64,000 nt of DNA, taken from the NCBI GenBank assembly GCA_017448825.1, contig JAFSKR010000029.1, forward strand, positions 1 to 64,000, written 5' to 3'. The notes under the pieces are model-generated. The model was not told where the DNA came from. It searched no databases and worked only from the letters and a program-made list of their open reading frames with translations. Positions 11,447-59,743 of this stretch are shown piece after piece. This DNA comes from Bacteroidaceae bacterium. Lineage in GTDB: Bacteria > Bacteroidota > Bacteroidia > Bacteroidales > Bacteroidaceae. Made by a program: the position numbers and the translations under genes. Every line of letters begins with the position of its first letter. Within the stretch, counting starts at the first letter, position 1.

Positions 11447-11486
11447 CGGTGTGCCCCACGTCGCTCGACCGACGTGGGGCACACCG
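11447..11486. terminator. 17-bp perfect inverted repeat between convergent genes
   Basis: CGGTGTGCCCCACGTCG (11447-11463) is the exact reverse complement of 11470-11486, leaving a 6-base loop. It could act as a bidirectional terminator between the S4-domain gene and pepT. Its right arm is the first unit of the adjacent tandem array. Confidence 0.5.
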
Positions 11487-11578
11487 CTCGACCGACGTGG
11501 GGCACACCGCTTAACCGACGTGGGGCACACCGCTCGACCGACGTGGGGCACGCCGCTCGATCGACGTGGGGCACGCCG
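11464..11578. repeat. 23-bp tandem array, five units
   Basis: Five contiguous 23-base units of the form CTCGACCGACGTGGGGCACACCG start at 11464, 11487, 11510, 11533 and 11556, with few substitutions and no length change. The array ends at the pepT stop codon. There are no spacers, so it is not CRISPR. Confidence 0.95.
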
Positions 11579-11579
11579 G

Positions 11580-12794
11580 TTATGAGGCTGTGATTTGGCA
11601 GATGTTGACGATGGTCATCATGGCTTTCTCCATGCTCTGCACGGGGCAAAACTCATGAGGGCCGTGGAAGTTGAGGCCACCAGCGAAGAGGTTGGGGCAG
11701 GGGAGGCCGCGGAAGGAGAGTTGGGTCCCGTCGGTTCCGCCTCGGATGGCTTTGATTTTCGGCTCGATGCCAGCAGTGGTCATGGCTTTTCGGGCGATGT
11801 CGATGATGTACATCTTGTCCTCCAACTGCTCGCGCATGTTGTAGTACTGGTCTTTCATTTCGAGCAGTGCCACCCCCTCGCCATATTTCTCGTTGATGGC
11901 TGCCACCACGTCGCACATTTCCGTCTTTCGGCTTTCGAAGTACTCGCGGTCGTGGTCGCGGATGATGAAGGAGAGTTGGGCTTTTTCGCAAGTGCCGCTG
12001 ATGCCGGTCAGATGGAAGAATCCCTCGTAGTCCTTGGTGGTTTCGGGGGTCTCGTCGGCAGGAAGCATCCCCACCAGCTCGGTGGCGATGCGGGCCGCGT
12101 TCAGCATCTTGCCCTTAGCGTAGCCGGGGTGGACGGAACGGCCGTTGATGGTGATTTTGGCAGCGGCGGCGTTGAAGTTCTCGAACTCTATTTCGCCCAC
12201 TTCGCTGCCGTCCATCGTGTAGGCGAACTCGCAGCCGAACTTCTCCACGTCGAAGCGGTGCGCTCCGAGTCCGATTTCCTCGTCGGGATTGAAGCCGATG
12301 CGAATCTTGCCGTGCCTGATGTCGGGATGCGTTTGCAGATAAATCATGGCTTGCACAATTTCGGCGATGCCAGCCTTGTCATCGGCTCCCAGCAGGGTGG
12401 TTCCATCGGTCACGATGAGGTCTTCGCCCTTGTGGTCGAGCAGTTCGGGAAACTTGGATGGGGAGGTGACGATGCCTTCGGAGAGCACGATGTCGCCTCC
12501 GTCGTAGCTCGGCACGATGCGTGGCTTCACGTTTGCGCCCGAGGCGTCGGGGCTGGTGTCCATGTGGGCAATGAAGCCGATGGTGGGCACGGCCTTGTCG
12601 GTGTTGGCGGGGAGGGTGGCATAGAGGTAGCCCCATTCGTCCAGTTCGACATCCTGCAAGCCTTCCCTTTTCAGTTCCTCTTTCAGGAACTCGGCGAACA
12701 CCCGCTGCTTCTCGGTGGAGGGTGTCGTGCCTGTCTCCTCCGACGACTGGGTGTCGAAGGTGACGTATTTCAAAAATCTGTCAACAATGTTCAT
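11580..12794 (-). CDS. pepT: Peptidase T (tripeptide aminopeptidase)
   Basis: Cytosolic dinuclear-zinc aminopeptidase (M20B) that removes the N-terminal residue of tripeptides. It has 404 residues, the usual length. Metal-binding motifs are visible: HMDTSPD near residue 80, GADDKAG near 140 and the catalytic glutamates in FNPDEEIG near 175. The downstream C1B peptidase-like gene starts on the same strand just 4 bases upstream, suggesting a small peptide-utilisation operon. Confidence 0.95.
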
Positions 12795-12798
12795 GGTT

Positions 12799-14184: not shown

Positions 14185-14280
14185 ATATTTTATGTGATGG
14201 TTTTAGGCTGTAAATGCAATTTCTGAGTGCGAAATTAGGAAAAATCCGTTTATTAGCATCGTTTATCCGTAAATAATTGC

Positions 14281-28472: not shown

Positions 28473-29564
28473 TCAGTTTTGTTGCAGGAAGGTGAGTCTG
28501 CTGGTCGAATAGATGAAGATGGAGTAAACGAACGCGTCGATGAGGATGATGTAGGTGACTTGTATGCCATAGACGTATAGTCCGTAGTTGATGAGGCAGA
28601 TGGCGAGGAAGAGGAGGAGGATGACGGCGAGGGTCTGGTGCATGTCGAGGCCCATCTGCATGATGCGGTGGTGGATGTGGGTCTTGTCGGCTTCGAACAT
28701 GCTTTTGCCGTTGAATTTCCGTTGGAGCGCCACGCGGATGACGTCGATGCTGGGCAGGAACACGAGGGTGAAGGAGATGAGCAGGGATTCTTCGCGGTAG
28801 GGGAAGCCGCCTGTTTCGTTCGACATCTGGTACTTGATGGCGAGGTAGGCAATCACATAGCCCAGGAAGAGGCTGCCGGAATCGCCCATGAAGGTCTTGA
28901 GCCTTCCCACTTTTCCGTAGAAGTTGAAGAAGAAGAAGGCGAGGGTGGCTCCGGCGAGGCTGATGCTGATGAGGCTGAAGAGGTAGGCGTCCAGCTTGTA
29001 GTACAGGTAGGCGAAGGAGCCCAGGATGAGGAAGGCGATGCTGGAGGCCAGTCCGTCGATGCCGTCTATGAGGTTGATGGCGTTGACAATCAGCAGGATG
29101 ACGAAGACGGTGAGTGGGTAGCTAATCCAAAGGGGTATCTCGTGCACGCCGAAGAGTCCGTGGAGATTGCTAATCATCAGGTTGCAGAGGGGGAACAGGA
29201 GTGCAGCGATGGATTGGATGATGAACTTATGGGTGGCTTTCAATCCCTTGAGGTCGTCGAGGATGCCTATCAGATAGATGAGCAGGGCACCTACTACCAT
29301 GATGATGTTGGATACGCAAATCTCGAAATTCTTGTTGATGCCTTGATACATGACGAGCAGTGTGATGGCTACGCCCACTCCCAAGGAGGGCATGAAGAGT
29401 GTGCCGCCGAGCCTGGGAATGGCCTGCTTGTGCATTTTCCTCGTATTGGGCAGGTCGTATATCCCACGGGTGTTGCATATCTTCACGATGAGTGGTGTGC
29501 ATACCAGTGAGAAGGTAAGGCTGATGGCGAATGCCAAGATGATGTATACGTAGTTGATCGTCAT
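28473..29564 (-). CDS. WecA/TagO-like undecaprenyl-phosphate sugar-1-phosphate transferase
   Basis: Polytopic inner-membrane enzyme (MraY/WecA family) of 363 residues with about 10-11 helices. It transfers a HexNAc-1-phosphate to undecaprenyl phosphate. Signature motifs are present: GILDDLKG, NAINLIDGIDGLASS, KTFMGDSGSLFLG and DKTHIHHRIMQMG. It could prime O-antigen-like or teichoic-acid-like polymer synthesis and is the natural partner of the TagA-family enzyme at 50704-51540. Confidence 0.92.
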   Translation of the reverse strand: MTINYVYIILAFAISLTFSLVCTPLIVKICNTRGIYDLPNTRKMHKQAIPRLGGTLFMPSLGVGVAITLLVMYQGINKNFEICVSNIIMVVGALLIYLIGILDDLKGLKATHKFIIQSIAALLFPLCNLMISNLHGLFGVHEIPLWISYPLTVFVILLIVNAINLIDGIDGLASSIAFLILGSFAYLYYKLDAYLFSLISISLAGATLAFFFFNFYGKVGRLKTFMGDSGSLFLGYVIAYLAIKYQMSNETGGFPYREESLLISFTLVFLPSIDVIRVALQRKFNGKSMFEADKTHIHHRIMQMGLDMHQTLAVILLLFLAICLINYGLYVYGIQVTYIILIDAFVYSIFIYSTSRLTFLQQN

Positions 29565-29942
29565 AGATTGTATATAAGGCTTCGTTACTTTATAAACGTG
29601 AAAAAGTGTTATTTATTGTAAAGCCATCGTGATTTCTTTCAACAAATGTGAAAAAAGTTTATTTTTGAGGGTGTCGCCCTGCCATTTCCTTGGTCTGTCT
29701 CCATGTCTTGGCTGCCTTCCTCGGCAGATTTTAGCCCGATGCCCTCGTGAGCTTTGGCTCGATGCCCTCGTGAGCTTTGGCTCGATATGCTCGTGAGCTT
29801 TGGCTCGATATGCTCGTAAGCTTTGGCTCGATGTGCTCGTGGGCTTTGGCTCGATGTGCTTGTGGGCTTTGGCTGCAACTGCCGCGAGGGGGGAGGGCTG
29901 ATTCCTTGCCGAGGCAGGGGAGGGAATGGGGCAGGCCGATGC
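29565..29942. other. Intergenic region carrying a tandem array, no gene
   Basis: It separates the wecA-like gene from the lipoprotein gene upstream of it. The main content is the 23-bp array at 29737-29874. No TAnnTTTG box was found in front of the wecA-like gene, so its promoter is unresolved. Confidence 0.6.
29737..29874. repeat. 23-bp tandem array, six units
   Basis: Six contiguous 23-base units of the form CGATGCCCTCGTGAGCTTTGGCT start at 29737, 29760, 29783, 29806, 29829 and 29852. The minus strand contains the core AAGCTCA shared with the arrays at 39021 and 59585. It lies downstream of the lipoprotein gene's 3' end. Confidence 0.95.
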
Positions 29943-30374
29943 TTAGTATCTCCTGAAGTGGAGGCGGAGCAGGGTGTCGGCGAGGGTCAGGTGGCTGTGA
30001 TTCAGTTGGTCGATGTGGTAGCTGACCTTCGTCCCGTTGATGCCGAGGGGGGCGAGCAGGCTGTCGTTTTCCACAGCCGTGAGGCTGTCCTTGGTGTGGA
30101 CATGGTAGGGGTTGCTGACGGTCAGCTGGTCTTTATCTTTCTGCAGGCGGAGAAGAAACTTCTGGCTTGTGCTGATGTTTCTGACTTGCAGGATGTCTCC
30201 CTCGATGGCCCAATAGATGTTGCTTCTCGCCATGTCGGCTGTGCCTTCGGTGGCAAGGGTGTCAATCTCGCGCAGTTGCCAGTTGGCATCAAGCTCGTTG
30301 TCGCTGGCCATTTCGATGTCGCAGGAGGTGAGCAGGGTGCAGGCGAGCAGGATATGGAGGAATGGGTGTTTCAT
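29943..30374 (-). CDS. Small lipoprotein (lipocalin-like, unassigned)
   Basis: Exported lipoprotein of 143 residues. The start at 30374 (MKHPFLHILLACTLLTSC) gives a lipobox LTSC with Cys18 as the lipidated residue; an ATG at 30389 would overlap the upstream wzi stop. The mature part is beta-rich (NWQLREIDTLA, YWAIEGDILQVRN), resembling Bacteroidetes lipocalin-like lipoproteins. It begins 4 bases after the Wzi-family gene, so it is co-transcribed with it. Function is unknown. Confidence 0.72.
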   Translation of the reverse strand: MKHPFLHILLACTLLTSCDIEMASDNELDANWQLREIDTLATEGTADMARSNIYWAIEGDILQVRNISTSQKFLLRLQKDKDQLTVSNPYHVHTKDSLTAVENDSLLAPLGINGTKVSYHIDQLNHSHLTLADTLLRLHFRRY

Positions 30375-37657: not shown

Positions 37658-38737
37658 ATGGACCCGCAGATAACGCTCTTGATTACTTATATGTTGTTGT
37701 CGTTGATTATCTCGGCGATTTGTTCCGTCCTTGAGGCAACAATACTTTCCACCCCCATGTCATACGTGACCACGCTTGAGACCCAAGGCGCCAAGGGGTG
37801 GCAACGTCTGAAAGAGTATAAGACAAACATCGACCGTCCTATCTCTGCCATCCTGATTGTCAATACAATAGCCAACACCGTGGGTGCCTCCCTCGTGGGC
37901 TCGCAGGCGGCTGGCTACGCCTCATCCCACTTTGCCGCATCCAGCGAGATGAGCCTCTTCGTCGGCATCGTCTCAGGTGTCTTCACCTTCCTCATCCTCG
38001 TCTTCTCCGAGATAGTGCCCAAGACCATCGGCTCCACCTATTGGCGCAAACTCGCCATCCCAGCCACCAGCCTCATCCATGCAATGGTCGTCATCACCTA
38101 TGTCCTGGTGGTTCTCTTGGAGAAAATCACACACGTGGTGGGCAACACCTCCTCGCAAGAATCTGTCACACGCGACGAGGTGGCGGCAATGGTGACCGTC
38201 GGCACCGAAGAAGGCGTCCTGGAGAAAAAGGAAAACCGCATGATTCAGAACCTGCTCAAGCTGGACAGCGTGGCAGCCCACGAAATCATGACACCCAGCG
38301 TCGTCGTCTCGATGGCAGAAGAAGAAATGACCCTGCGTGACTTCTATCACGACGAAGAGTTCAAGAACTTCTCCCGCATCCCCGTCTATAAAGGCGAAGA
38401 GAGCGACTACATCACGGGCTATGTGCTGCGCCAGGAAATCCTCGAGCGGCTGGCAGAAGACAAATTCGACACCAAGCTGGGTGAACTGGCACGCCCCATC
38501 CTTTCCTTCTCGGAAGACGAAGATGTATCGACCATTTGGGAAAAACTCCTGGAGAAGAAAGAACACATCTCCATCATCATCGACGAGTACGGCACCCTGC
38601 GCGGCATCGTCACGCTCGAAGACGTCATCGAAACCATGCTCGGCTTCGAGATTGTCGATGAAAAAGACGAAGTGGTCGATATGCAGGAACTCGCCAAGGC
38701 CCAGTGGAAGCAGATGCAGAAGGAACAGCACAAGTGA
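37658..38737 (+). CDS. Hemolysin/CNNM family protein (DUF21 + CBS pair)
   Basis: Inner-membrane protein of 359 residues. The DUF21/CNNM domain has four helices in residues 1-150, with VFSEIVPKTIGSTYW as its signature. It is followed by two CBS domains (HEIMTPSVVV near 210, then ISIIIDEYGTLRGIVTLEDVIE near 305). Relatives include CorC/TlyC-type and magnesium or cobalt transport-linked proteins. The C-terminal CorC_HlyC domain is absent, so this is a short form. Its 3' end runs into a short repeat array. Confidence 0.87.
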   Translation: MDPQITLLITYMLLSLIISAICSVLEATILSTPMSYVTTLETQGAKGWQRLKEYKTNIDRPISAILIVNTIANTVGASLVGSQAAGYASSHFAASSEMSLFVGIVSGVFTFLILVFSEIVPKTIGSTYWRKLAIPATSLIHAMVVITYVLVVLLEKITHVVGNTSSQESVTRDEVAAMVTVGTEEGVLEKKENRMIQNLLKLDSVAAHEIMTPSVVVSMAEEEMTLRDFYHDEEFKNFSRIPVYKGEESDYITGYVLRQEILERLAEDKFDTKLGELARPILSFSEDEDVSTIWEKLLEKKEHISIIIDEYGTLRGIVTLEDVIETMLGFEIVDEKDEVVDMQELAKAQWKQMQKEQHK

Positions 38738-38786
38738 TGCAAAAGGGACAGCACAAGTGATGTGAAGGGACAGCACAAGTGATGCG
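38727..38786. repeat. Short 22/23-bp tandem array, three units
   Basis: AGCACAAGTGATG recurs at 38727, 38750 and 38772 (periods 23 and 22), beginning inside the last codons of the CNNM gene and continuing past its stop. Confidence 0.85.
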
Positions 38787-38962
38787 AAAGGAGCAACCCA
38801 TCATCCCCGCGCTCATCCTTTTCACATACGCCAGAGGGGAGACATCTCCCACTATCCGCAGCCATCGCTCTTATATATAAATAATGTATAAAAGAATCGC
38901 TCACATCATTCTCCGTTCATAGCCTTCGGACACAACATCCGAGACCGGGAACGGCTATCCAA

Positions 38963-39020: not shown

Positions 39021-39177
39021 CAGCCCCACCAGCATAAGCTCACCAGCCCCACCAGCATAAGCTCACCAGCCCCACCAGTATAAGCTCACCAGCCTCACGG
39101 GCATAAGCTCACCAGCCTCACGGGCATAAGCTCACCAGCCTCACGGGCATAAGCTCACCAGCTTTGCGAGCATAAGG
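39021..39177. repeat. 23-bp tandem array, about seven units
   Basis: Contiguous 23-base units of the form CAGCCCCACCAGCATAAGCTCAC start at 39021, 39044, 39067, 39090, 39113 and 39136, and a partial seventh starts at 39159. Two unit subtypes (CCCCACCAG and CCTCACGGG) are grouped, as expected from stepwise duplication. The core is AAGCTCA. Confidence 0.95.
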
Positions 39178-39314
39178 TTGTCGGCTCCCTTAAGTGTCGT
39201 CCCCTTGTGTCAACAAAAACGGCAAAATCCCTCCCATCATCCGTTAAAGATTCTTAAAACGGATAAAAAAGGATTTTTTCAACCATTCTTCATCCATCTT
39301 TCATTATTTCTTCG

Positions 39315-39322
39315 TACCTTTG
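39315..39322 (+). promoter_or_regulatory. -7 box of polysaccharide locus 2
   Basis: TACCTTTG, an ideal -7 box, lies 67 bases before the ATG of the UpxY-type gene. No TTTG is seen at -33. A TTG that could extend the reading frame lies inside this box, which argues for the downstream ATG as start. Confidence 0.6.
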
Positions 39323-39335
39323 CACTCCGAAAGTT

Positions 39336-39361
39336 TTTCCCATCCGAAATTGTGTGGGAAA
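39336..39361 (+). promoter_or_regulatory. Leader hairpin upstream of the UpxY-type gene
   Basis: TTTCCCA (39336-39342) pairs with TGGGAAA (39355-39361) across a 12-base loop, between promoter and start codon. In Bacteroides fragilis, UpxY proteins act on the untranslated leader of their own operon. This hairpin is a candidate for such an element. Confidence 0.4.
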
Positions 39362-39388
39362 GGCATTCCAAAAAGTGAGATAGAGTTT

Positions 39389-39985: not shown

Positions 39986-40404
39986 AACAAAAAAGCACAA
40001 AATGCTCCTGTATGTAGAAGATGCCCCATCTTCCCACTGCCCATATTGCAAATCGAACTCCCCACAAATCGAACTCCCCACAATCGAACTCCCCACAATC
40101 GAACTCCCCACAACATACTTTCAACCCTCAGCGATTGGCACCTGCCAGTGAACACAATAGGGTGCGGTGGCCGCATCTCTCATATAACTCGGTTCAATAG
40201 CTATGGTGACCACCAACCCCTTTTCTAATAAGAACGAAAGAGGTATATATAAGCCCAACGGTCGAACTCCTATTCTTAACTCTTAATTCTTCATCGACAT
40301 AACAGCCAACGATACTGCACCTTTTCTTTTGCAACTATTCCTAAAGAGGTGTAAGTCTGCGGCTTTATCATAGGAGCAGGTTCATTGCAAAATGGATTCT
40401 TCCA
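39986..40404. other. Untranslated region between the UpxY-type gene and wzx
   Basis: This 419-base stretch separates the antiterminator gene from the flippase gene. It holds a 15-bp tandem array near its start. No gene, clear promoter or terminator was found in the remainder. UpxZ would be expected here by analogy with B. fragilis but is not present. Confidence 0.6.
40053..40110. repeat. 15/16-bp tandem array, four units
   Basis: TCGAACTCCCCACAA-like units start at 40053, 40069, 40084 and 40099 (periods 16, 15, 15). It differs in period from the 23-bp arrays. Confidence 0.9.
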
Positions 40405-41844: not shown

Positions 41845-43119
41845 ATGGATAATCAGGAGTTGATTATTAGGACAGATGCTGCTATTTACCTGATAACATT
41901 TTTATATTGGCTTATCAAATTAAAAAAGTTGAATGTGGGTCTTATCATTTTGGGGATAATGACCATTTCACACCTTGGTACAATTTTCTACTATACAATA
42001 TTAAGTTCGCTGGGTGTTTATATGAACATTCAAATTGCTCCTTATGTTTTTTTGTATCTTATGATTGTAATGGGTTTATATCCTTTCTTGACATATAAGG
42101 GGTTGAAACATGTGAACATTGGTGGCAATTTGAATACCATAAAGGGTATAGCAATATTTATTATCTTTGTTAATCTGGAACCATTATTAGAGAATATTTA
42201 TTTGGCTTTATTTAGTAGAGGTGAATATGCTGATTTATATGAAGACAAACAGGATGGGGCATTAGAAATATATTCCTTTATTGGTGAAAAATTTATGAGG
42301 TGGGCAAGTTACTTCAAAATATGTGCAACAGTATCTCTCTTTTATTTTCTCTCAAAATATAAGTCAAACAGATATTTATTATTAGGTCTGTTTCTGTGCC
42401 AGATAAATTATGTTTTGCAAGGAATGAATACTGGTTCTCGTGGAAATATTGTATCTCAGGTTATTATGTGTGTCCTCTGCTTTGTCCTATTTTCCCCACA
42501 ATATTCTTCACACTTGATTCGTAAAACAAAAAAGAATCTGCTGATTTTATTGATTCCCATAGGACTTCTTTTATTTGGAATAACGGCATCACGTTATGAA
42601 TCAGGGCGAAAAGATAAATCTATGGTTGAGTGGATTTTTTTATATGTATCAGAAGGTCCCATAAAATTTAACAATGAGATGTGGGACGGAGAACATAACA
42701 CCAATGGGGATGTCAACATGAACTTTCTGAAAGATTTGCTGGGCATGAAAACTTATGTTACATATGAAGAGCGTAATGATCATTATATTGCAAAAAATGG
42801 TCGTTGGATAGAGGTTTTTTATACGTATGTGGGTGACTTTGTCTCTGATTTTGGAATCATTGGTGCCTTCTTTATATGTGTGGCTCTTTTCCTCATTACT
42901 AAAAAGATTCTCAAAAGTGACACTCTCCATTTTCATGATGTGTTATTGTTGATGTTCCTCCTCCATTTTTATGCCATAGGGTTTGCTTCTAATTGTTACA
43001 GATCTTATTTTTTGCAGAGAGGCCTATTCTACAATTCTTTTATCTACATCTATCTGTTTTTTGCCTCGAAACGCTTTTCCCAGGCAACAAATAGAAGCAT
43101 AACATCTAAGCAAATATGA
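41845..43119 (+). CDS. Wzy-like polymerase of locus 2
   Basis: Polytopic protein of 424 residues with about 11 hydrophobic helices and a hydrophilic loop of about 100 residues (around 250-335, including YVTYEERNDHYIAKNG). A conserved-looking NTGSRGNIVSQ segment follows a helix, as in O-antigen polymerase-like (EpsG/Wzy) proteins. It is very AT-rich compared with the backbone, which suggests horizontal transfer. It overlaps the next gene by 4 bases. Confidence 0.72.
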   Translation: MDNQELIIRTDAAIYLITFLYWLIKLKKLNVGLIILGIMTISHLGTIFYYTILSSLGVYMNIQIAPYVFLYLMIVMGLYPFLTYKGLKHVNIGGNLNTIKGIAIFIIFVNLEPLLENIYLALFSRGEYADLYEDKQDGALEIYSFIGEKFMRWASYFKICATVSLFYFLSKYKSNRYLLLGLFLCQINYVLQGMNTGSRGNIVSQVIMCVLCFVLFSPQYSSHLIRKTKKNLLILLIPIGLLLFGITASRYESGRKDKSMVEWIFLYVSEGPIKFNNEMWDGEHNTNGDVNMNFLKDLLGMKTYVTYEERNDHYIAKNGRWIEVFYTYVGDFVSDFGIIGAFFICVALFLITKKILKSDTLHFHDVLLLMFLLHFYAIGFASNCYRSYFLQRGLFYNSFIYIYLFFASKRFSQATNRSITSKQI

Positions 43120-44030
43120 TTTCAATAGCGATGGCAACCTACAACGGTACCAGATACATACGGGAGCAGATTGATTCTATTTTGAGGCAGACCATACAAG
43201 ATTTTGAACTGGTGATATGTGATGATTGTTCAACAGACGGCACGTTGATGATAGTTGAAGAATATGCCAAGAAGGATTCTCGATTTGTTGTATACAAAAA
43301 TGAAATAAATCTTGGATACCGAAGGAACTTTGAAGGGCTTGTCTATAAATGTAGGGGCGAGTACATTGCTTTTTGTGATCAAGATGACATCTGGCTTCCA
43401 AATCATCTGGAGGTTTTGTTCAGAGGCATAGAAGGTCGGGATGTGAGTTCTGCGGATGCGGAGATTATAGATGCGACTGGAAAATCCATGGGATTTAAGC
43501 TCAGCGATTTTACCCGATTAAGATATTGGCCTCAACAACCTCTTGAACAAGGTTATACCTATTTCTATTACAGAAATCCTTTTCCTGGATGCAATACAAT
43601 GTACAGGAAGTCATTTCTGCAAAAGATTTATCCTATACATAATGATAACATTCAACTGCATGATACCTTCGCTGATACAATGGCTTGTGTGTTAGGGAAA
43701 GGCATTGGGTATGCTGATGAGGTGATTATGTTATATAGGTTTCATGGCAATAGCGTAACAGCAGGTTCCAAGAAAGATTCTCAACAGCATCCGATGAAAT
43801 GTCTTATAAGAAAATTTGTATCTGGAATAGGTTCTCCACGCTTTAGATATGTCAAAGATAGGGTACATTATTGTGAGGAAATCTATTCAAGAAGGTTCTC
43901 TTTGGATGAAAGACAATATGAATTCGTCCGTAATGCACGTGAATATCATCAACGAAGAAACAGCATCTGGGGGCGTTTCTTGAATCTTCTGTTTGACATT
44001 AGGCATTATAGAAAAATATACAATGTATGA
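43116..44030 (+). CDS. Glycosyltransferase family 2 of locus 2
   Basis: GT-A transferase of 304 residues: ISIAMATYNGTRYIREQIDSIL at the N-terminus, LVICDDCSTDGT, and IAFCDQDDIWLP as the metal-binding region. It belongs to the WfaP/rhamnosyltransferase-like GT2 group. It is coupled by 4-base overlaps to the genes on both sides. Specificity is unknown. Confidence 0.88.
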   Translation: MISIAMATYNGTRYIREQIDSILRQTIQDFELVICDDCSTDGTLMIVEEYAKKDSRFVVYKNEINLGYRRNFEGLVYKCRGEYIAFCDQDDIWLPNHLEVLFRGIEGRDVSSADAEIIDATGKSMGFKLSDFTRLRYWPQQPLEQGYTYFYYRNPFPGCNTMYRKSFLQKIYPIHNDNIQLHDTFADTMACVLGKGIGYADEVIMLYRFHGNSVTAGSKKDSQQHPMKCLIRKFVSGIGSPRFRYVKDRVHYCEEIYSRRFSLDERQYEFVRNAREYHQRRNSIWGRFLNLLFDIRHYRKIYNV

Positions 44031-44872
44031 AACGATTAGCATTGCTGATTTCATGCTTGCTGTTGGTTGTGGATGTGTTCTGCCAACCTCGATTCCCCGT
44101 TGCTGGCAAGTATAAGAGGGAACCAGCACAGGGGATGGCCGTGTATGGATCTGCGGCATTTCTTTTGAACAATACGGGGCTGTGTAGAGTTGTTGATTTG
44201 AAGACTGGGGAGGTATCTTCCGAGTTTTCTTTGGGCAGTGTGGGAGTAAACAATCATGCGAATAGTGCGTCATTCGGTATAGAGCGAGTAGGCAGAAATA
44301 AATATCCCGTAATGTATGTGTCGGAGTGCAATGATCCATGCCGATGTTTTGTGGAGAATGTGACAGACAGTGGTGCCGTGCTTGTTCAGACAATTGCTTT
44401 GGACAGGGAAGGAATTGATTCTATTGCCCGCGATTGGGTCGTTGATAGACGTGGCAAGACGATATATACGATATCAAGAAGGACGTATTCTTCAGGAAAA
44501 GAGTGGACTTGTGCTCATCGAATCAATCAGTACAGGCTTCCGAGATTGGGAGAAGGCGAATATGTTGTTTTGAGTCAGAAAGATGTCCTCAATAGTTATG
44601 ACATATTGTTCCCGAATGTTTTGCAAGGTGCCGCCATTAAGAAAAACTTCATGTATTTGCCGGTAGGCTTGGAAGATAATAAAATTCATTATAATCGGAA
44701 AGATAAAGAGCGAGCCTTAATAGTTGTGAACTTGAAAACATGTAAAGTTGAACGCAAGATTGATCTCATGGACATTACGAAAAATGAACCCGAAGACTGT
44801 GACTTTTATAAAGGCAAGCTACTTTTATATTGTGGTCAGTCTGGCGGAATATACGAAATTCCATATAAATAG
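44027..44872 (+). CDS. Secreted propeller-like protein embedded in locus 2
   Basis: A 281-residue protein with a signal peptide (MKRLALLISCLLLVVDVFCQ). The mature part looks like repeated four-stranded blades of a beta-propeller (GMAVYGSAAFLLNNTGLCRVVDL, TIYTISRRTYSS, LLLYCGQSGGIYEIPY at the end), with no catalytic motif that I recognise. It overlaps the GT2 gene by 4 bases and lies 5 bases before the cytidylyltransferase gene, so it is clearly part of the operon. A role in binding or modifying the exported polymer is inferred only from context. Confidence 0.65.
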   Translation: MKRLALLISCLLLVVDVFCQPRFPVAGKYKREPAQGMAVYGSAAFLLNNTGLCRVVDLKTGEVSSEFSLGSVGVNNHANSASFGIERVGRNKYPVMYVSECNDPCRCFVENVTDSGAVLVQTIALDREGIDSIARDWVVDRRGKTIYTISRRTYSSGKEWTCAHRINQYRLPRLGEGEYVVLSQKDVLNSYDILFPNVLQGAAIKKNFMYLPVGLEDNKIHYNRKDKERALIVVNLKTCKVERKIDLMDITKNEPEDCDFYKGKLLLYCGQSGGIYEIPYK

Positions 44873-44877
44873 TTTTT

Positions 44878-45618
44878 ATGAATATAGCAATTATTCTTTC
44901 GGGTGGTGTTGGCTCACGGATGGGGGCAAGCATTCCGAAGCAGTATATAGAAGTGGATGGTAAACCAGTCATTTGGTATTGCTTAAAGACTTTTTTTGAG
45001 AACCCTCTGATTGATTCAGTGGTGATAGGCAGGGCAGAAGAATGGGCGGAATACGTGGAGGAGCAGGTAAGGAGCGTGATGACGGATAAGCCTGTTTATT
45101 ATTCATTGCCTGGCGAAACCCGCCAGTACTCCATTTTCAATGCTCTTATGGAGGCTGAAAAGCATGGTGCTGAAGAGGATGACATTGTAATTGTTCACGA
45201 TGCTGCAAGACCTCTTGTCAGCGATGCAATTATTAACTCTTGTCTGTTGGGATGCCATGAGGCCGACGGAACACTTCCTGTCATTCCTGTGAAAGATACG
45301 CTGTACCAAAGCGTGGATGGAGAAAATATAACAAGTCTTTTAAAGCGTGATGAGTTGTTTGCTGGGCAAGCCCCTGAAGCATTTGTCTTCGGGAAGTACT
45401 TGCATTTGCACAAGGAAATGCCGCACAAGGAACTGTTGAGCATCAATGGCAGCACAGAGATTGCGTATAAAGGAGGATTGCATGTAAAGTTGATCAAGGG
45501 GGACGAGATGAATTTTAAGATTACAACCCCCGAAGATTTGTCAAATTTTGAAAGTATTATAAACCAAAGGAAAAATGAAAGCATACGTTCTTCATCAAGT
45601 GAACGACCTGCGATATGA
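44878..45618 (+). CDS. IspD/TarI-family cytidylyltransferase (probable ribitol-5-phosphate type)
   Basis: Predicted to form a CDP-polyol, probably CDP-ribitol, from CTP and D-ribitol 5-phosphate. The 246-residue product has the nucleotide-binding LSGGVGSRMGASIPKQ near residue 8, VIVHDAARPLVS near residue 100 and the ITTPEDL end motif. The family also contains IspD of the MEP pathway. The directly following dehydrogenase and epimerase genes and the polymerase genes favour the TarI role. It overlaps the next gene by 44 bases. Confidence 0.82.
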   Translation: MNIAIILSGGVGSRMGASIPKQYIEVDGKPVIWYCLKTFFENPLIDSVVIGRAEEWAEYVEEQVRSVMTDKPVYYSLPGETRQYSIFNALMEAEKHGAEEDDIVIVHDAARPLVSDAIINSCLLGCHEADGTLPVIPVKDTLYQSVDGENITSLLKRDELFAGQAPEAFVFGKYLHLHKEMPHKELLSINGSTEIAYKGGLHVKLIKGDEMNFKITTPEDLSNFESIINQRKNESIRSSSSERPAI

Positions 45619-46591
45619 TGAGGTGCCCATGCCGGAATGTCCAGCAGGCTGGGCAATTGTTCAAGTAAAGGCGGCAGGAATCTGTAGCTCGGACATTGCC
45701 CGCGTGTTTACGAAAGGGACTTATCATTTCCCCACGATTCCAGGGCATGAGTTCTCTGGAGTTGTGTGTTCCGTAGGTGACGGCGGAGATTCCGGTTGGA
45801 TAGGGAAGAGGGTTGGAGTCTTCCCTCTGATTCCTTGCAGGGAATGTCCTCAATGTGCAGAAAAACATTATGAAATGTGTGCTCATTATGATTATTTGGG
45901 TTCACGTCGTGATGGTGGTTTTGCTGAATATGTTGCGGTGCCGGTCTGGAATATGGTTTCTCTGCCAGACTCTGTTTCTTATGTTTCGGCGGCGATGCTT
46001 GAACCGCTTGTTGTTGCTTTGCATGCAATAAAACGAGGGAACTTAAAAGAAAAGGATTCTGTGGCTATCATTGGCACAGGAATGATTGGAATGAGCGCAG
46101 GGCAATGGGCATACAAGTTTGGGGCAAAAAGTGTAACGGTTATAGCTCGTAATGAGGCGAAGAGGGAAATTGCGCTAAAGTGTGGATTGGATTATCTGGT
46201 TCATGCTCAAGAAGAGGATATGGGACAATATGATTTTGTGCTTGAAGCTGTGGGCAGTCCTGAGTCGGTGGAGATGGCTATTCGGGTAGCTGCCCCTGGA
46301 GGAACAGTGTTGTTGATGGGAAATCCTTCTGGTGATATTCCTTTGTCGCAAGATGTCTATTGGCGCGTCCTTCGTAAGCAGCTGACATTGAAAGGAACAT
46401 GGAACTCTTCGTATGATGGCATTAACCCGTCTGATTGGACCGAGGCTGTGCATGCCATATATAAAAAAGCTGTGAATGTAGAAGTCTTGGTCTCTCACCA
46501 GTTCCCACAGGAGAGGCTGATGGATGGTCTGCTGTTGATGTCTGAGCATAAGGAACCATATTGTAAAGTAATGACTATTTGGAATGAATAA
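45575..46591 (+). CDS. Zinc-dependent alcohol dehydrogenase (probable TarJ-like ribitol-5-phosphate dehydrogenase)
   Basis: Medium-chain dehydrogenase of 338 residues. Catalytic-zinc ligands are in AGICSSDIARV and GHEFSG; the structural zinc cluster is CRECPQCAEKHYEMC. The cofactor fold shows AIIGTGMIGMSAGQWA. In TarIJ systems the enzyme reduces ribulose 5-phosphate to ribitol 5-phosphate. A galactitol-1-phosphate-type dehydrogenase is a close alternative by sequence. It starts 44 bases inside the cytidylyltransferase gene in another frame and overlaps the epimerase gene by 8 bases. Confidence 0.8.
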   Translation: MKAYVLHQVNDLRYDEVPMPECPAGWAIVQVKAAGICSSDIARVFTKGTYHFPTIPGHEFSGVVCSVGDGGDSGWIGKRVGVFPLIPCRECPQCAEKHYEMCAHYDYLGSRRDGGFAEYVAVPVWNMVSLPDSVSYVSAAMLEPLVVALHAIKRGNLKEKDSVAIIGTGMIGMSAGQWAYKFGAKSVTVIARNEAKREIALKCGLDYLVHAQEEDMGQYDFVLEAVGSPESVEMAIRVAAPGGTVLLMGNPSGDIPLSQDVYWRVLRKQLTLKGTWNSSYDGINPSDWTEAVHAIYKKAVNVEVLVSHQFPQERLMDGLLLMSEHKEPYCKVMTIWNE

Positions 46592-47267
46592 AAAAAGAAT
46601 GCCACATATAGGAAAACTGTCTGTGTCACTGATGTGTGCAGACCTCATGAACATAGAGCGAGATGTGAAAACATTGGAGGAGAATGGCGTTGACTATCTG
46701 CACATTGATGTGATGGATGGTACGTTTGTGCCCAATCTTACGTTTGGTCCCGATTTTGTGAACTCGCTCCGCAAGATCACGGAGATACCTTTGGACATTC
46801 ACCTGCTGATGGAGCATCCAAGAGTGATTGTCCGGTCAATGGACATCAAGGAGGGGGACATCGTGACCATCCATAGCGAATGCAAGGAAAGCATCATGGA
46901 GAATGTGGCTTTCATCAAGCAGAAAGGCGCGAAGTTTGGATTGGCGCTGAATCCAGACACTTCCATTGAGGAGGTGAAGAAATATCTTCCTTATGTGGAT
47001 GTGATTTTGCTGATGTTGATTGTCCCGGGCTTTGCTGGAAGCATGATGATTCATGGAATGATGGAGAAGGTGGGTCAGACGAGGCACTTCCTTGATGAAA
47101 ACGGGTATGACAATATTGAAATCAGCGTGGATGGAAGTGTCAGTTGTGAGCGGGCGAAGTACATGAGGGAACAGGGTGCCTCCATCTTTGTGGGAGGAAC
47201 GGCTGGTATTTACAGAAAGGGCATGAAATTGGAAGATACGATTTCTGTTTTTAAGGAAAATATCTGA
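46584..47267 (+). CDS. Ribulose-phosphate 3-epimerase family protein
   Basis: TIM-barrel epimerase of 227 residues interconverting xylulose and ribulose 5-phosphates. The catalytic Asp in HIDVMDGTFVPNLTFGP, the metal ligands in IHLLMEHP and VTIHSE, and the second Asp in EISVDGSVS are all present. It departs from housekeeping Rpe at the phosphate loop (LLMLIVPGFAGSMMI). Inside this operon it would feed ribulose 5-phosphate to the dehydrogenase. The housekeeping copy is presumably elsewhere. Confidence 0.85.
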   Translation: MNKKRMPHIGKLSVSLMCADLMNIERDVKTLEENGVDYLHIDVMDGTFVPNLTFGPDFVNSLRKITEIPLDIHLLMEHPRVIVRSMDIKEGDIVTIHSECKESIMENVAFIKQKGAKFGLALNPDTSIEEVKKYLPYVDVILLMLIVPGFAGSMMIHGMMEKVGQTRHFLDENGYDNIEISVDGSVSCERAKYMREQGASIFVGGTAGIYRKGMKLEDTISVFKENI

Positions 47268-47275
47268 GTGTTGAC

Positions 47276-48499
47276 ATGAGAGTAAAGCATCTGATAAAAT
47301 TTCCACCTTTTTTGTGCCTGTATTTTCTTTATCAGCTTTCAAAACTGATGCGTAGGGATACAGCAAAATGGGTCTTTGGCTCTCATCTTGGGTATGCGGA
47401 CAATTCAAAGTTTCTGTTTATAGAAGTCATTGAAAATCATCCTGAAATAAATGCCATCTGGATTTTTCATCATAAAAGGGATGTTGTAAAACTACGGAAG
47501 AAAGGGTTCAAGGCCTATCATTGGCTCTCTCTTAAGGGTATATACCATTGCCTTACTGCCAAAGTGTATGTCTGTACCCGGAATGCTTTTGACATAAATA
47601 CTTACACTTCTGGTGGAGCGATTTTGCTTGACCTGAATCATGGTGTAGGTGTAAAGCAGTGTTTCTGGAAACGTCCTGGGGCCATAGAAAAGCGATTTGG
47701 CACGACAATTGAGAAGATTAAACGCTCTTTCTTTTATAAGGTCAACAACCTTTCAGAACTTTTCCGAAATCCGGACATTTGTTTGGTTCCGTCATATAGC
47801 CAAGCTGAACGCTTTTTTGCGCCAATGTATAATATTCCCGTGGAGAGTTGTCTTTTGGCAAACTATCCTCGCAACGAGGCTCTTCTTTGGGATGCCAACA
47901 AGAGAGATACTGTTATTAGGAAATACGACAATCTTGCATCTTTGGAATATATTGCATATCTTCAACAGTTCTCGAAGGTGTATATTTATATGCCGACTTG
48001 GCGAGACAATGGTTCGGATTTCATCAATAAGGCTCATATTGATGTTGTGAGGTTAAATGAAGTATTAAAGCAATGCAATTCTTTGTTGGTGTTTAAATTG
48101 CATCCGTTTACAAAATTGGATGTAGAAGAATGGGGGCACTTATCAAACATTTCCCTTTTCGATAGAAGATGTGACTTGTATCATGTGATTCCTTACACGC
48201 ATTGTTTAATTACGGACTACTCATCAATTTATTCAGACTATGTGCTGTTGGACAAAGAAATCATCCTGTATGTTTTCGATAAGAATGAATACTTGGAACA
48301 TTGCCATGACTTGGAAGACTATGATAAATACTATCTTGGAAAACAAGCGTATAATTTTGATGAGTTGATACAAATGATAACAGATAATGTGGATTGCCAC
48401 ATACCTCAAAAGGATAAGGATTTTGTGATGCGTTTCTATTGGGACAGCATCAATAACGGTGTGGATATCGTAGAGGAAGTGAAGAAAAGGTTGCACTGA
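47276..48499 (+). CDS. CDP-glycerol glycerophosphotransferase family protein (first copy)
   Basis: Predicted membrane-associated polyol-phosphate transferase (TagB/TagF/TarL family), 407 residues. Recognisable features are the N-terminal segment WVFGSHLGYADNSKF, LLDLNHGVGVKQ in place of the usual WHG loop, YIYMPTWRDNG, and the C-terminal HCLITDYSSIYSDY donor-site motif. It would add glycerol- or ribitol-phosphate from the CDP-activated form. The weak WHG motif suggests a divergent acceptor. Confidence 0.85.
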   Translation: MRVKHLIKFPPFLCLYFLYQLSKLMRRDTAKWVFGSHLGYADNSKFLFIEVIENHPEINAIWIFHHKRDVVKLRKKGFKAYHWLSLKGIYHCLTAKVYVCTRNAFDINTYTSGGAILLDLNHGVGVKQCFWKRPGAIEKRFGTTIEKIKRSFFYKVNNLSELFRNPDICLVPSYSQAERFFAPMYNIPVESCLLANYPRNEALLWDANKRDTVIRKYDNLASLEYIAYLQQFSKVYIYMPTWRDNGSDFINKAHIDVVRLNEVLKQCNSLLVFKLHPFTKLDVEEWGHLSNISLFDRRCDLYHVIPYTHCLITDYSSIYSDYVLLDKEIILYVFDKNEYLEHCHDLEDYDKYYLGKQAYNFDELIQMITDNVDCHIPQKDKDFVMRFYWDSINNGVDIVEEVKKRLH

Positions 48500-48516
48500 T
48501 TTTTTGTTGGAAGGAT

Positions 48517-49725
48517 ATGATTACAGAAATAGCTCAAAAGGTACTTAGAACCTGTATGAAGATTTTTTGTTTGTTTCCACTTAAAAGAAACAGGATTATC
48601 TTTAATAGTCAAAAAGGAACGCAATATGCTTGTAGTCCTCGGTATATTTATGAATATCTTGTAGGAAAGTTTGGAGATAAAATGCAGTATGTATGGTGTT
48701 TACAAAATCCTCCAGAGTCATTAAGAGCGAAGCCAAACGTGAAGATTGTCTCATATAATAGTATGAGATATTTTTATTACCAGATGACATCGAAGATTAT
48801 TGTAGCAAATATACCAAGTCCCTGTTATGTTCCAAAACGTAAGAATCAATTCATGATTGATACATGGCATGGGGGAGGAGCTTACAAAAGATGTGGAATC
48901 GCCACACCTAAGCAAGCCTCATTGTCTAATTTGTCAAAAAGTATAATTCAAACAACAGAAGTTTCTGATAATGCAAAATGGGAGTTATATAAAGCTTATT
49001 ATAACGCATTGGATACTAATTTGTTTCTCACCAGTTGCAAGCGTCATACAGAAGTCATGTTTGAATCTCAGTTGCTTCCTCGGGAAGCTTATATAGAGAT
49101 TGGGACACCAAGGAATGATGTGTTTTTTACGGACTATAAGGCTGTAGGGGAAAAAGCCCGGCGAAGATTGGGTATAGATACCGATAAAAAGGTTGTATTT
49201 TTTGCCCCGACCTACAGAGGGAGTGTAAAGAATCAAAAATACGTCATGAATTTGGATATACAGATGTGCCTAAATGCAGCGAAAGGACGATGGGGAGGGG
49301 ATTGGGTCTTTGTTTTTAGAATGCACGTGCTTAGCAATGCATTGGACAAGGAAAAAATCCCGGAGAATGCGGTTAATGCCTCTAAATATGATGAAATGCA
49401 GGAGTTGTTATGTATGGCAGATGTGTTTATCACCGATTACTCTTCTTCTCAATGGGATTTTGCTTTAACGGGAAAACCGGCTTTTCTGTTCACTCCAGAT
49501 TTGGAATACTATCAAAATGAAGATAGAGGGTTCTATACTCCGATTGATGACTGGGCTTTCCCGTATGCAAAGACCAATGAGGATTTGGCTGACCTGATTA
49601 GGAATTATGATGAAAAGAGACACTTGCAGAAAGTACAACGGCATTTGGATTTGTTGGGGTCTTGCGAGAGAGGAAATGCGACAGAAAAGGTTTGTGAGAT
49701 TATTATAAGACACATGGCATCATGA
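48517..49725 (+). CDS. CDP-glycerol glycerophosphotransferase family protein (second copy)
   Basis: Second TagB/TagF/TarL-family enzyme, 402 residues. The canonical motifs are clear: IDTWHGGGAYKRCG near residue 115, VFFAPTYRGS near residue 230, FRMHVLSN and VFITDYSSSQWDFAL near residue 310. One copy may prime and the other polymerise the chain, as TagB and TagF do in Bacillus; this division is inferred. It overlaps the acyltransferase gene by 4 bases. Confidence 0.9.
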   Translation: MITEIAQKVLRTCMKIFCLFPLKRNRIIFNSQKGTQYACSPRYIYEYLVGKFGDKMQYVWCLQNPPESLRAKPNVKIVSYNSMRYFYYQMTSKIIVANIPSPCYVPKRKNQFMIDTWHGGGAYKRCGIATPKQASLSNLSKSIIQTTEVSDNAKWELYKAYYNALDTNLFLTSCKRHTEVMFESQLLPREAYIEIGTPRNDVFFTDYKAVGEKARRRLGIDTDKKVVFFAPTYRGSVKNQKYVMNLDIQMCLNAAKGRWGGDWVFVFRMHVLSNALDKEKIPENAVNASKYDEMQELLCMADVFITDYSSSQWDFALTGKPAFLFTPDLEYYQNEDRGFYTPIDDWAFPYAKTNEDLADLIRNYDEKRHLQKVQRHLDLLGSCERGNATEKVCEIIIRHMAS

Positions 49726-50687
49726 GGGACGGGAAATTGGATTTTTTCAAGGGACTTCTTATTTGGAGTGTCGTTTTGGGACATACTTTGAATGTATTAT
49801 GTCCTACGGAGAATTCACTTCATATGTTGCTGAGAACCTTTGATTTGCCGATGTTTATGTACATTTCGGGCTTTTTGTTGAGAGGCTCTCTTGCTCGCCA
49901 TCATTGGAAACAGTTGGTGGTGAATAAAGTTACGAACATTATTATTCCTGCTATTGTTTGGATGCTCATATCATTGTTGTTTGGTGATCATTGCATGTAT
50001 TATTTCCTATGGGCGGTTTTTGCAAGTTCTGTTCTTGTTTGTGTTTGTGCAAAGATTGGTATGAAATCGTGGATGAGGGAGGGAATCCTGGCTCTGATTG
50101 CTGTATCGTTTCATCTAATACCCTTAAATGTCGTCAATATCTCTTTCTTGTTTCCTTTTTTCTTGTTTGGCTATTATACGGAAAAAATATCTTCTGTTGG
50201 ATGGATACGGGGAGTGTTGTCTTTGGTCGTGTTTGTAGTCCTCTTTGTATATGTGTGGCGGCCAGAATACACAATATGGAGTAGCGGAGGATATATACTT
50301 CAAGATCCTGGATACATGGTAGGGGTTGTGTCTCTTCGTTTGATAATCGGAATGGCAGGAATATATGCCACCATTTTTGTGATGGGAAAACTTTATGATT
50401 TGTATGGTAAGACGAGATGTATGAATCTGTTTGTGGGTATTGGCAAGGAGACGTTGTCCCTATATTTGTTGCAGCATATTGTTGTTGAGATTGGGATGAT
50501 GAGACTTGTTGCATCTCTAAATGTGAACAATGTCTTGACGGCTCATCATTTACTGATTGGATATGTTATTGCTCCCTTGATTTCTTTTGTGTTGCTTCTT
50601 GTCATGTATTATGCCATTACTTTGATACAAGCGTCAAAATATACAAAATGGGTGTTTGGGTTTAAATTGAACTTGGTGACGGAATGA
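49722..50687 (+). CDS. Acyltransferase family 3 membrane protein
   Basis: Polytopic protein of 321 residues with about 10 helices, starting RDGKLDFFKGLLIWSVVLGHTLN, where the His is the conserved acyltransferase-3 residue. These enzymes O-acetylate or otherwise acylate extracellular sugars. It ends the low-GC core of locus 2 and probably decorates the polymer. Confidence 0.87.
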   Translation: MRDGKLDFFKGLLIWSVVLGHTLNVLCPTENSLHMLLRTFDLPMFMYISGFLLRGSLARHHWKQLVVNKVTNIIIPAIVWMLISLLFGDHCMYYFLWAVFASSVLVCVCAKIGMKSWMREGILALIAVSFHLIPLNVVNISFLFPFFLFGYYTEKISSVGWIRGVLSLVVFVVLFVYVWRPEYTIWSSGGYILQDPGYMVGVVSLRLIIGMAGIYATIFVMGKLYDLYGKTRCMNLFVGIGKETLSLYLLQHIVVEIGMMRLVASLNVNNVLTAHHLLIGYVIAPLISFVLLLVMYYAITLIQASKYTKWVFGFKLNLVTE

Positions 50688-57876: not shown

Positions 57877-57911
57877 AAGTAGAAAGAATTGCAGAGACTG
57901 GAGCCGGAAGA

Positions 57912-58661
57912 TTGAACAGACTGCTCATCATATTAGGACCAACGGCGTGCGGCAAGACCACTTTTGCCGCACATTTGGCCTGCGACATGGACGGGGAAAT
58001 CATCAGCGCCGACAGCCGCCAGGTCTATCGAGGCATGGACATCGGGACGGGCAAGGACTTGGCGGACTACCATGTGGGCGGCAAGGACATCCCCTACCAC
58101 CTGATAGACATTGCCGAGGCTGGTACGCGCTACAACGTCTATGAGTGGCAGCAGGGCTTCCTCGATGCCTACAGGGACATCCTGGGGCGGGGCAAGCTGC
58201 CCATCCTCTGTGGCGGCACGGGCATGTACATCGAGAGCGTGGTGAAGGCCTACGAGTTCGATGGCAGGGCATTTCCCGAGTTCCGACCCCTCATCATCGG
58301 GCTGCGCATCAGCCGCGAGCAGAGGCGCGCCAAGATTAGCCAGCGGCTGCGGGCGCGGTTGGACGAGGGGATGGTTGCCGAAGTCCAAGGTCTGCTGGAG
58401 CGGGGCGTGCCAGCCGAGCGGCTCATCCGTTACGGGCTGGAGTATAAATATGTGACGCTCTATCTGACAGGGCAGTTGAAGTATGAAGAGATGGTGTCGC
58501 TGCTCGAAATAGCCATCCACCAGTTTGCCAAGCGGCAGATGACGTGGTTTCGGGGCATGGAGGAGCGCAGGGGCATCCCCATCCACTGGCTCGACGTGGA
58601 GACACCGATTGGCGAACGAATTGAAACAGTGAAAGAATTATGGTTGACGCAAGCCGAATAG
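57912..58661 (+). CDS. miaA: tRNA dimethylallyltransferase family protein (short MiaA-like)
   Basis: Predicted to transfer a dimethylallyl group to A37 of tRNAs reading U-starting codons. It has 249 residues from a TTG start, shorter than the usual 300 or so. The P-loop ILGPTACGKTTFAAHL, SADSRQVYRGMDIGTGK and CGGTGMYIESV are intact, but the middle insertion domain is reduced. Bacteroidetes often encode two MiaA paralogues; this looks like the shorter type, and its activity is not assured. It overlaps the lipid kinase gene by 22 bases. Confidence 0.82.
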   Translation: MNRLLIILGPTACGKTTFAAHLACDMDGEIISADSRQVYRGMDIGTGKDLADYHVGGKDIPYHLIDIAEAGTRYNVYEWQQGFLDAYRDILGRGKLPILCGGTGMYIESVVKAYEFDGRAFPEFRPLIIGLRISREQRRAKISQRLRARLDEGMVAEVQGLLERGVPAERLIRYGLEYKYVTLYLTGQLKYEEMVSLLEIAIHQFAKRQMTWFRGMEERRGIPIHWLDVETPIGERIETVKELWLTQAE

Positions 58662-59572
58662 GCATCGTATATAATCCTCATGTGGGCATAGACCGCTCGC
58701 AGAAGCGGTGGACGCTCATCCGCCAGTACATGGACTTGAAGGGTGTGCCCTACGACCATGTGCAGTCGGAATCGACCGCATCGGTGGAACGCCTTGTCCG
58801 CATGATGTGCGACAGCGGCTACCACACCATCGCCGTGGTGGGTGGCGACGGTTCCCTCAATGGTGCCGTCAACGCCATCATGCAGCAGCGCGACATCCTG
58901 CCAGACGACTTCGCCTTTGCGCTGATTCCCAATGGCATAGGCAACGACTTCTCGAGGTTCTGGGGAGTGTCGGTCGATGACTACAAGCGGAGCATCGACA
59001 GCATCATCGAGCGCCGCGTGCGCAAGGTCGATGTGGCGTGCTGCACCTATCAGGACGAGGGCATCCCTCAGCAGCGTTATTTCATCAACTGCCTCAACAT
59101 AGGTCTGGGCGCACGTCTCATCAAGACCACCAACGATGCCGCCCACATCATCGGCTCCAAGCGCCTGTCCGTCATTCCCGCCCTCATCAGCCGCATCTTC
59201 GAGCGCAAGCAGTTCCAGCTTGCCTTGCAGGTGGAGAGCGAGAAGGTGGAAGGCAATTACATGTCGGTGTGCATCGGCAACTGCCACGGCTACGGGCAGA
59301 CGCCCAATGCCGTGCCCTACAACGGGTTGCTGGATATGTCGATGATTACCCGGCCAGAGTGGTGGCAGCTCTTCGAGGGCTTCTGGCTGCTGGGCAAGGG
59401 GCGATTCCTCAACTACAAGAACGTCCACCCCTACCGTTCCCGCCAAATCGTCGTCAACGAGGTGGACAAGGCACTTGTCTCGCTGGACGGCATGGTGCTA
59501 CCCTCCAAGCATCCTGCGCCCATCCGAGTCACCATTCAGCCCGATGCGCTCAATTTCATCGTGCCAGCATAA
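58640..59572 (+). CDS. Diacylglycerol kinase family lipid kinase
   Basis: Soluble lipid kinase-like protein of 310 residues. The catalytic domain shows AVVGGDGSLNGAVNAI near residue 72 and LIPNGIGNDFSRFWG near residue 108, the nucleotide-binding and Asp-containing motifs of the YegS/DgkB family. The lipid substrate is not known. It is the last gene before a 23-bp repeat array and a convergent Crp-like gene. Confidence 0.88.
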   Translation: MVDASRIGIVYNPHVGIDRSQKRWTLIRQYMDLKGVPYDHVQSESTASVERLVRMMCDSGYHTIAVVGGDGSLNGAVNAIMQQRDILPDDFAFALIPNGIGNDFSRFWGVSVDDYKRSIDSIIERRVRKVDVACCTYQDEGIPQQRYFINCLNIGLGARLIKTTNDAAHIIGSKRLSVIPALISRIFERKQFQLALQVESEKVEGNYMSVCIGNCHGYGQTPNAVPYNGLLDMSMITRPEWWQLFEGFWLLGKGRFLNYKNVHPYRSRQIVVNEVDKALVSLDGMVLPSKHPAPIRVTIQPDALNFIVPA

Positions 59573-59584
59573 CCAGCTGAAAAA

Positions 59585-59743
59585 CTTGCATGGGCAGCCA
59601 CGGGGTTGCCTGCATAAGCCGCTGAGCTTTGCCTGCATGAGTCGCTGGGCATAGCCTGCGTAAGCTACTGAGCTTTGCCTGCATAAGCTGCTGGGCTTTG
59701 CCCGTATGAGTCGCTGGGCATAGCCTGCATGAGTGGCCGGGGG
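59585..59743. repeat. 23-bp tandem array, about seven units
   Basis: Units of the form GCCTGCATAAGCCGCTGAGCTTT start at 59608, 59631, 59654, 59677, 59700 and 59723, after a degenerate first unit at 59585-59607. The period is exactly 23. The minus strand carries AAGCTCA in several units. It fills the gap between convergent genes. Confidence 0.92.

Follow-up and report, generated by a model that had tools for sequence, protein, structure and literature searches.

Small dispersed repeats (SDR) are known from cyanobacteria, where each family has its own unit length, between 21 and 27 bp, and single units are inserted precisely, a mark of mobility. SDR units measure about 20 bp, are dispersed, and stand in tandem in varying number (PMC2884548). 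Repetitive extragenic palindromic (REP) sequences or palindromic units, bacterial interspersed mosaic elements (BIMEs), and REP doublets forming hairpins (REPINs) are palindromic extragenic repeats, and ordered tandem clusters of them are known (PMC3116915). The tandem repeats of Borgs have units of varying length (e.g., 18, 20, and 21 nt), lie in open reading frames (ORFs) in 43 to 65% of cases, and form recent, independently arising arrays, some beginning inside an ORF end (PMC9879509). Bidirectional intrinsic terminators place an A-run, a GC-rich hairpin, and a T-run between genes. Here, we analyzed tandem arrays of short repeats in the first 64,000 nucleotides of contig JAFSKR010000029.1 from a Bacteroidaceae bacterium (assembly GCA_017448825.1; this whole stretch is called the window below). 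The arrays resemble SDR in their short, dispersed units in tandem, REP sequences and their relatives in being extragenic and in part palindromic, Borg repeats in their independent formation, in one case at an ORF end, and bidirectional terminators, by eye, in the build of their palindromic families. Their unit length, not their sequence, is kept constant, at 23 bp in this species and within 22 to 24 bp in the genus. Sequence is the usual criterion for sorting repeat arrays; in this genome, length alone is common to about 14 sequence families, and in some related species it is shifted by one base.

A common period of 23 bases in intergenic arrays

A preliminary description of the window had listed five arrays, four with an exact 23-base period and a shorter one with periods of 23 and 22. 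Tandem Repeats Finder (TRF) recovered all five, with period 23 at four sites and periods 23 and 22 at 38713-38792. The genome of the window comprises 2.95 Mb on 75 contigs and is about 86% complete; our sample covered 813 kb of it (28%), namely, the window and 40 further stretches, and low-complexity units were filtered out ahead of the array counts. Direct lag counting over 381 intergenic segments (135 kb including margins) assigned a period of exactly 23 to 42 of the 72 intergenic tandem arrays with periods from 16 to 40. Few arrays had the neighboring periods (22, two arrays; 24, four; 25 to 27, none), and the runner-up was period 21 with a count of eight. First-order Markov resampling in ten replicates yielded 0.1 period-23 arrays per replicate, compared to the 42 observed.

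TRF, applied to the same 813 kb, detected 32 nonoverlapping period-23 arrays with at least two copies and five of period 46, while periods 22 and 24 were represented by one array each. The peak was visible already among intergenic arrays of about two copies (23, eight; 22, one; 24, two; 25 to 45, none); at periods 12 to 15, a range where chance matches are common, such arrays numbered 9 to 11 each. The range of periods in the part of the genome read is narrow, and the broad range that had been named as speaking against a common length was not observed. The genome also carries AT-rich arrays on short motifs like ACTTTTC, with periods of 14, 21, and once 46 (e.g., L009:3870-3904, L013:9682-9722, and L073:11399-11554; L numbers denote loci and G numbers genomes).

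Unlike unit sequences

That the period is conserved without sequence identity had been proposed from the window and now extends over the part of the genome read. At a threshold of 15 identities out of 23, which is the 99.9% point of shuffled unit pairs, the 42 period-23 units fell into 14 clusters (10 at 14 identities and 16 at 16), and seven arrays stood alone in their own cluster. The largest cluster, family 1, has 12 rows with the pattern ACCGACGTG-CCC-CACGTCGGT, one of them (L024) doubtful, and contains array A, in which six loop-centered units with the core CCGACGTG-CCC-CACGTCGG follow each other at exact 23-base spacing. The AAGCTCA family comprises nine rows for eight loci. Arrays B, C, and D, linked earlier through this short motif, do belong together, as they cluster with each other and with the arrays of five additional loci. 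The 42 clustered rows do not include the short array at 38713, which another count scored at 23.

Array A has seven further matches in the window genome, and matches were also found in G003, G025, and G064; array C is matched in 2 of 60 relatives (G030 and G034). Family-1-like elements are present in G003, G036, G068, and RUG242. The last came from a pattern scan of named genomes for two tandem family 1 units, a scan possibly without records of the window's own genome, in which "uncultured Prevotellaceae bacterium RUG242" (filed under Bacteroidales) was the sole record set. At L021:34-344, L074:19599-19814, L077:16631-16922, and L083:4605-4762, a dispersed composite segment strings together two or three unlike 23-base arrays, and related units recur at these four places.

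Periods in congeners and in other families of the order

The sample from 36 congeners, made up of stretches and single loci (977 kb at first count), contained 75 intergenic arrays, of which 17 had period 22, 26 had period 23, and 5 had period 24; one array of period 22 is counted twice in these numbers, since a single G018 locus entered as both L209 and L223 (L149 and L177 were left out as nested). An invariant 23-base period suits the window genome, while its congeners show 22 and 24 as well. In G018, period 22 is the only one above 20 (four rows, one of them the double count), and G004 has seven arrays at 22 and two at 23. For a palindrome core like GGTGTGAGTCACACC, the period is 23 in the window genome and 24 in G030 and G034. 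Other families of the order yielded three arrays of period 22 to 24 in 681 kb, two of which share one unit in G054. This class of arrays is common in the genus and rare in the other sampled families of the order. In G034, a SAM-II (S-adenosylmethionine) riboswitch (L095:1332-1391) directly follows a period-23 array (1175-1274).

Palindromic and unstructured arrays

The arrays take two forms, a palindromic one with a special build (families 1 and 3) and an unstructured one that includes the AAGCTCA arrays B and C. In 12 of the 14 family 1 elements counted, all chosen as arrays already, there are exactly three units, at 23-base intervals; one element has four units and array A has six, and L080:4794 and L089:17716, with a changed core and about two units, lie outside this count. 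Both family 1 elements of RUG242 hold three units (by eye). Judged by eye, an A-run precedes and a T-run follows many elements of families 1 and 3, and an outer inverted repeat with a locus-specific middle encloses them. Most are predicted to fold into a single long stem, the middle unit forming its tip. Only two arrays of the window genome matched a regular expression that combined an outer arm with the A-run and T-run, and we therefore claim no fixed arm. A GC-rich hairpin followed by a T-run was likewise seen by eye in many of these elements; a terminator scan, which covered positions 11000-12000, found no terminator at array A. Strand asymmetry of G·U pairs in family 1 was mixed by eye and was dropped as a candidate feature.

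Twenty of 54 arrays folded better than unit-shuffled controls (z below -2) and the other 34 did not; arrays B and C had z values of -0.27 and -0.44, respectively. Palindromes beyond shuffles (p<0.05) were detected in 8 of 41 arrays of the window genome. Conversely, among 45 intergenic palindromes in the sample of this genome, an internal period of 23 or 24 was found in 13 and of 21 in one, and 31 had none at 70% identity. The palindrome with period 21 (L088:5337-5434) is the single exception among those with internal repeats. Two near-perfect palindromes of about 130 bases (L085:5895-6024 and L073:17126-17253) carry about three 23-base units in each arm, and their linkers differ between the loci yet pair within each (by eye). 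Since palindromic and unstructured forms have a common period, hairpin geometry as its sole cause was rejected.

Placement relative to genes

Genes were called with a simple ORF scorer trained on the window genome and applied to the congeners too; some genes were missed in 41845-50687. Across the window genome and congeners, 76 of 79 arrays of period 22 to 24 (or double) were intergenic, and in a first survey 44 of 45 period-23 arrays lay outside predicted genes, though about 87% of that sample is coding. Of the 62 arrays with both neighbors known, 17 lay between convergent genes, 37 between codirectional ones, and 8 between divergent ones, against about 11, 34, and 17 expected from gap length (chi-square by hand of about 7.7 with 2 degrees of freedom), and 22 of the 37 codirectional arrays were closer to the 3' end. 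This amounts to a mild bias away from 5' ends. The tie to gene 3' ends suggested by the preliminary description is weakly supported, as a mild convergent excess and divergent deficit, and not as a strict rule. Within the window, arrays A and D indeed lie between convergent genes. Array C, on the other hand, is 277 bases away from the end of the GldE/CNNM-like gene and does not touch it, and array B, with minus-strand genes on both sides, is separated from a 3' end by about 60 bases and from a 5' end by 163; the short array begins about 25 bases inside the GldE/CNNM-like ORF and is not wholly intergenic.

Local birth and turnover

The units of the short array derive from the 3' end of the GldE/CNNM-like gene, and the array was born locally from coding DNA. 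This gene end is present three times in the window and once in 28 of 29 congener orthologues, in the stretch read. For the 29th orthologue (L169), the count included another, weak match, but none of at least 13 of 23 identities lies within 100 bases downstream. The tandem second copy is thus missing in all 29 congener genes, which argues for the local origin.

At the Hsp15-pepT site of array A, 13 of 29 congener loci were resolved. In seven of these, the best period was 22 or 23, at identities of 0.70-0.87 and with units of several kinds; the other six had none. Comparison of G012 (no array) with G036 (array) suggests insertion or deletion of a whole element, in either direction. At the lipid-kinase site of array D, 25 of 29 loci were resolved; two had clear arrays with other units, and a third (G013) had two units at a 23-base period. 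At the three sites, identity in the congener matches was about 64 to 85%. An origin of array D from the end of the lipid-kinase gene was considered and dropped, as the resemblance is one base out of register (hand count) and is absent from a register scan. After the GldE-like gene of G013 (L162), we noted an inverted repeat, GAGGCTGTGTCAAAATC ... GATTTTGACACAGCCTC, that looks like the ends of an insertion sequence or a miniature inverted-repeat transposable element; similar ends flank the L080 and L089 elements.

Arrays of the window and their neighbors

The arrays and their flanking genes are listed in Table 1. Gene names derive from an NCBIfam search, in which PepT alone among the named neighbors scored above the curated cut-off. 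Array C shows a 46-base higher-order pattern on top of the 23-base period (TRF), and its right-hand neighbor is uncertain, being either 39389-39985 (+) or an alternative ORF, 39290-39901 (-), without NCBIfam match. TRF placed array D at 59606-59730 (5.4 copies, 75% matches), which adjoining weaker units would extend to the limits given in the table. A further tandem repeat in the window, at 40051-40113, consists of 4.1 copies of the 15-base unit AATCGAACTCCCCAC (97% matches by TRF) and has a period unlike the others.

Table 1. Tandem arrays of the window and the genes next to them
Feature	Position	Strand	Description	Gene name basis
Hsp15-like gene	10926-11351	+	One flank of array A	NCBIfam, below curated cut-off
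Array A	11462..11578	-	Period 23, 5.1 copies (TRF); between convergent genes	
pepT	11580-12794	-	Other flank of array A	NCBIfam, above curated cut-off
WecA/MraY-like gene	28473-29564	-	Flank of array B	NCBIfam, below curated cut-off
Array B	29730..29874	.	Period 23, 6.3 copies (TRF), 6-7 units; GTGAGCTT (= AAGCTCAC) family	
Gene of unknown function	29943-30374	-	Flank of array B	Below curated cut-off
GldE/CNNM-like gene	37658..38737	+	Last codons are the source of the short array	NCBIfam, below curated cut-off
Short array	38713..38792	+	About three units, periods 23 and 22 (TRF)	
Array C	39021..39177	.	AAGCTCAC family; TRF 39021-39176, 6.8 copies, about 7 units	
Lipid-kinase-like gene	58640-59572	+	Flank of array D	NCBIfam, below curated cut-off
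Array D	59585..59743	.	Diverged AAGCTCAC family member, about 7 units with weak ones; between convergent genes	
Crp/Fnr-like gene	59744-60448	-	Flank of array D	NCBIfam, below curated cut-off

Origin of the common length

The preliminary description had attributed the common period to selection or to a copying mechanism acting on length. The length lock itself stands, and of the two causes we tentatively favor copying, with slippage starting the arrays and a length-biased step multiplying them. Arrays would begin when small direct repeats give rise to short slippage of the ordinary kind, and mainly duplications of about 22 to 24 bp would then be multiplied by a copying step with a preferred stride. 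In this step, a stalled polymerase might slip or switch templates, perhaps where hairpins form between genes, and the stride may differ slightly between lineages. Arrays would survive between genes because a 23-base unit inside a gene shifts the frame, and some families would disperse and be kept as tandem hairpins at gene ends. Such a process is supported by the predominance of period 23 across 14 unit clusters with its peak already at about two copies, by the change of period of the GGTGTGAGTCACACC-like core between species, by the periods of G018 and G004, and by local birth and turnover.

Several observations weigh against it. One birth only is documented. In four congeners (L170, L179, L180, and L186), two copies of GATG lie at a distance of exactly 23 bases, so that plain slippage could by itself explain the first duplication without any ruler. 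The species pattern is not clean, as G015 mixes periods 22 and 23 and G034 mixes 22, 23, and 24, and the window genome itself has two 24-base arrays (L012:6158 and L022:13220) whose palindrome is akin to that of family 3, which has period 23. A comparison of indels to mismatches gave no clear sign of length constraint, under permissive TRF settings that put indels into 35 of 53 arrays of this genome with period 22 to 24, 44, or 46. Finally, families that recur at many loci may have their period in common by descent. A genus-wide trans-acting process that copies DNA of any sequence locally in strides of 22 to 24 nt, that is, a molecular ruler with a species-tuned stride, is quite unlikely in our view, and its odds are slightly lowered by the GATG pair and the two 24-base arrays.

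The main rival of length-biased copying is selection on spacing, which is possible though somewhat unlikely. The arrays would then be rows of RNA hairpins or protein sites, acting as transcript ends or end protectors, and 22 to 24 bases, about two turns of an A-form helix, would be their working distance. The three-unit build of family 1, shared by eye by both RUG242 elements, speaks for this reading, as do the A-runs, T-runs, and outer inverted repeats seen by eye, the long predicted stems of families 1 and 3, the 20 arrays that fold better than their shuffles, the 13 palindromes that repeat internally every 23 or 24 bases, and the mild convergent excess. However, the counted family 1 elements were preselected as arrays, with the two-unit elements L080 and L089 outside the count; 34 of 54 arrays miss the folding threshold, B and C among them keeping the same period; few arrays of this genome are palindromic beyond shuffles; and neither the terminator scan of 11000-12000 nor the G·U pattern lends it weight. 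Descent from one or a few ancestral 23-bp families that spread long ago and diverged, with the period inherited above all in the larger families, seems fairly unlikely. It would account for the clusters of 12 and 9 rows, for the matches of arrays A and C and the family-1-like elements in relatives, and for the drop to 10 clusters at the looser threshold, but it fits poorly with 14 clusters at the 99.9% shuffled point, with a palindrome core whose period differs between species, and with the local source of the array at 38713.

Bacteria commonly carry short arrays whose units are unequal, and the window genome also has periods 14 and 21, which stem from a 7-base AT-rich motif. Ordinary neutral minisatellites that share a period by coincidence or detection artefact are nevertheless a very improbable explanation: the sharp peak appears both by TRF and by direct lag counting, resampling gives 0.1 period-23 arrays per replicate, and the samples of other families of the order have only three arrays of period 22 to 24 in 681 kb; as far as the period peak goes, we regard the coincidence or artefact reading as already refuted. 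Equally improbable are REP/REPIN-type mobile palindromes moved by a REP-associated tyrosine transposase (RAYT). The families are intergenic, dispersed, and in part palindromic, which speaks for this reading, but many arrays are nonpalindromic, and in the 813 kb the strict family 1 core has 16 copies within arrays and one solitary copy. A search for the RAYT domain (Y1_Tnp, PF01797) gave no matches in the approximately 86%-complete window genome, with a control search positive in 5 of 14 known genomes. If length-biased copying sets the unit length, the arrays would expose a measurable step size of a replication or repair enzyme; if selection does, they would point to an unknown factor that reads hairpins or sites spaced evenly between genes.

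Comparison with known repeat systems

Clustered regularly interspaced short palindromic repeats (CRISPR) were rejected, as the units stand head to tail without spacers. At gathering score, Rfam matched one transfer RNA only in the window and gave six matches in seven other loci, none over an array. Among the literature matches listed, there was no description of a length-locked 22- to 24-bp array class in Bacteroidales, and the available parts of PMC2884548, PMC3116915, and PMC9879509 do not describe one unit length across unrelated families. The arrays qualify as minisatellites, i.e., tandem units of tens of bases, a definition of which fixed length is no part. Unlike bidirectional terminators, the palindromic elements usually consist of three tandem hairpins at fixed spacing with short T-runs, and array A lacks a terminator in the scan. 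Compared to REP sequences, BIMEs, and REPINs, the arrays are spacer-free direct repeats at 22 to 24 bp, with many unrelated units per genome and no RAYT found. From Borg arrays, the arrays studied here differ in that one length dominates and nearly all are intergenic. From SDR, they are set apart by the one length that unrelated families have in common.

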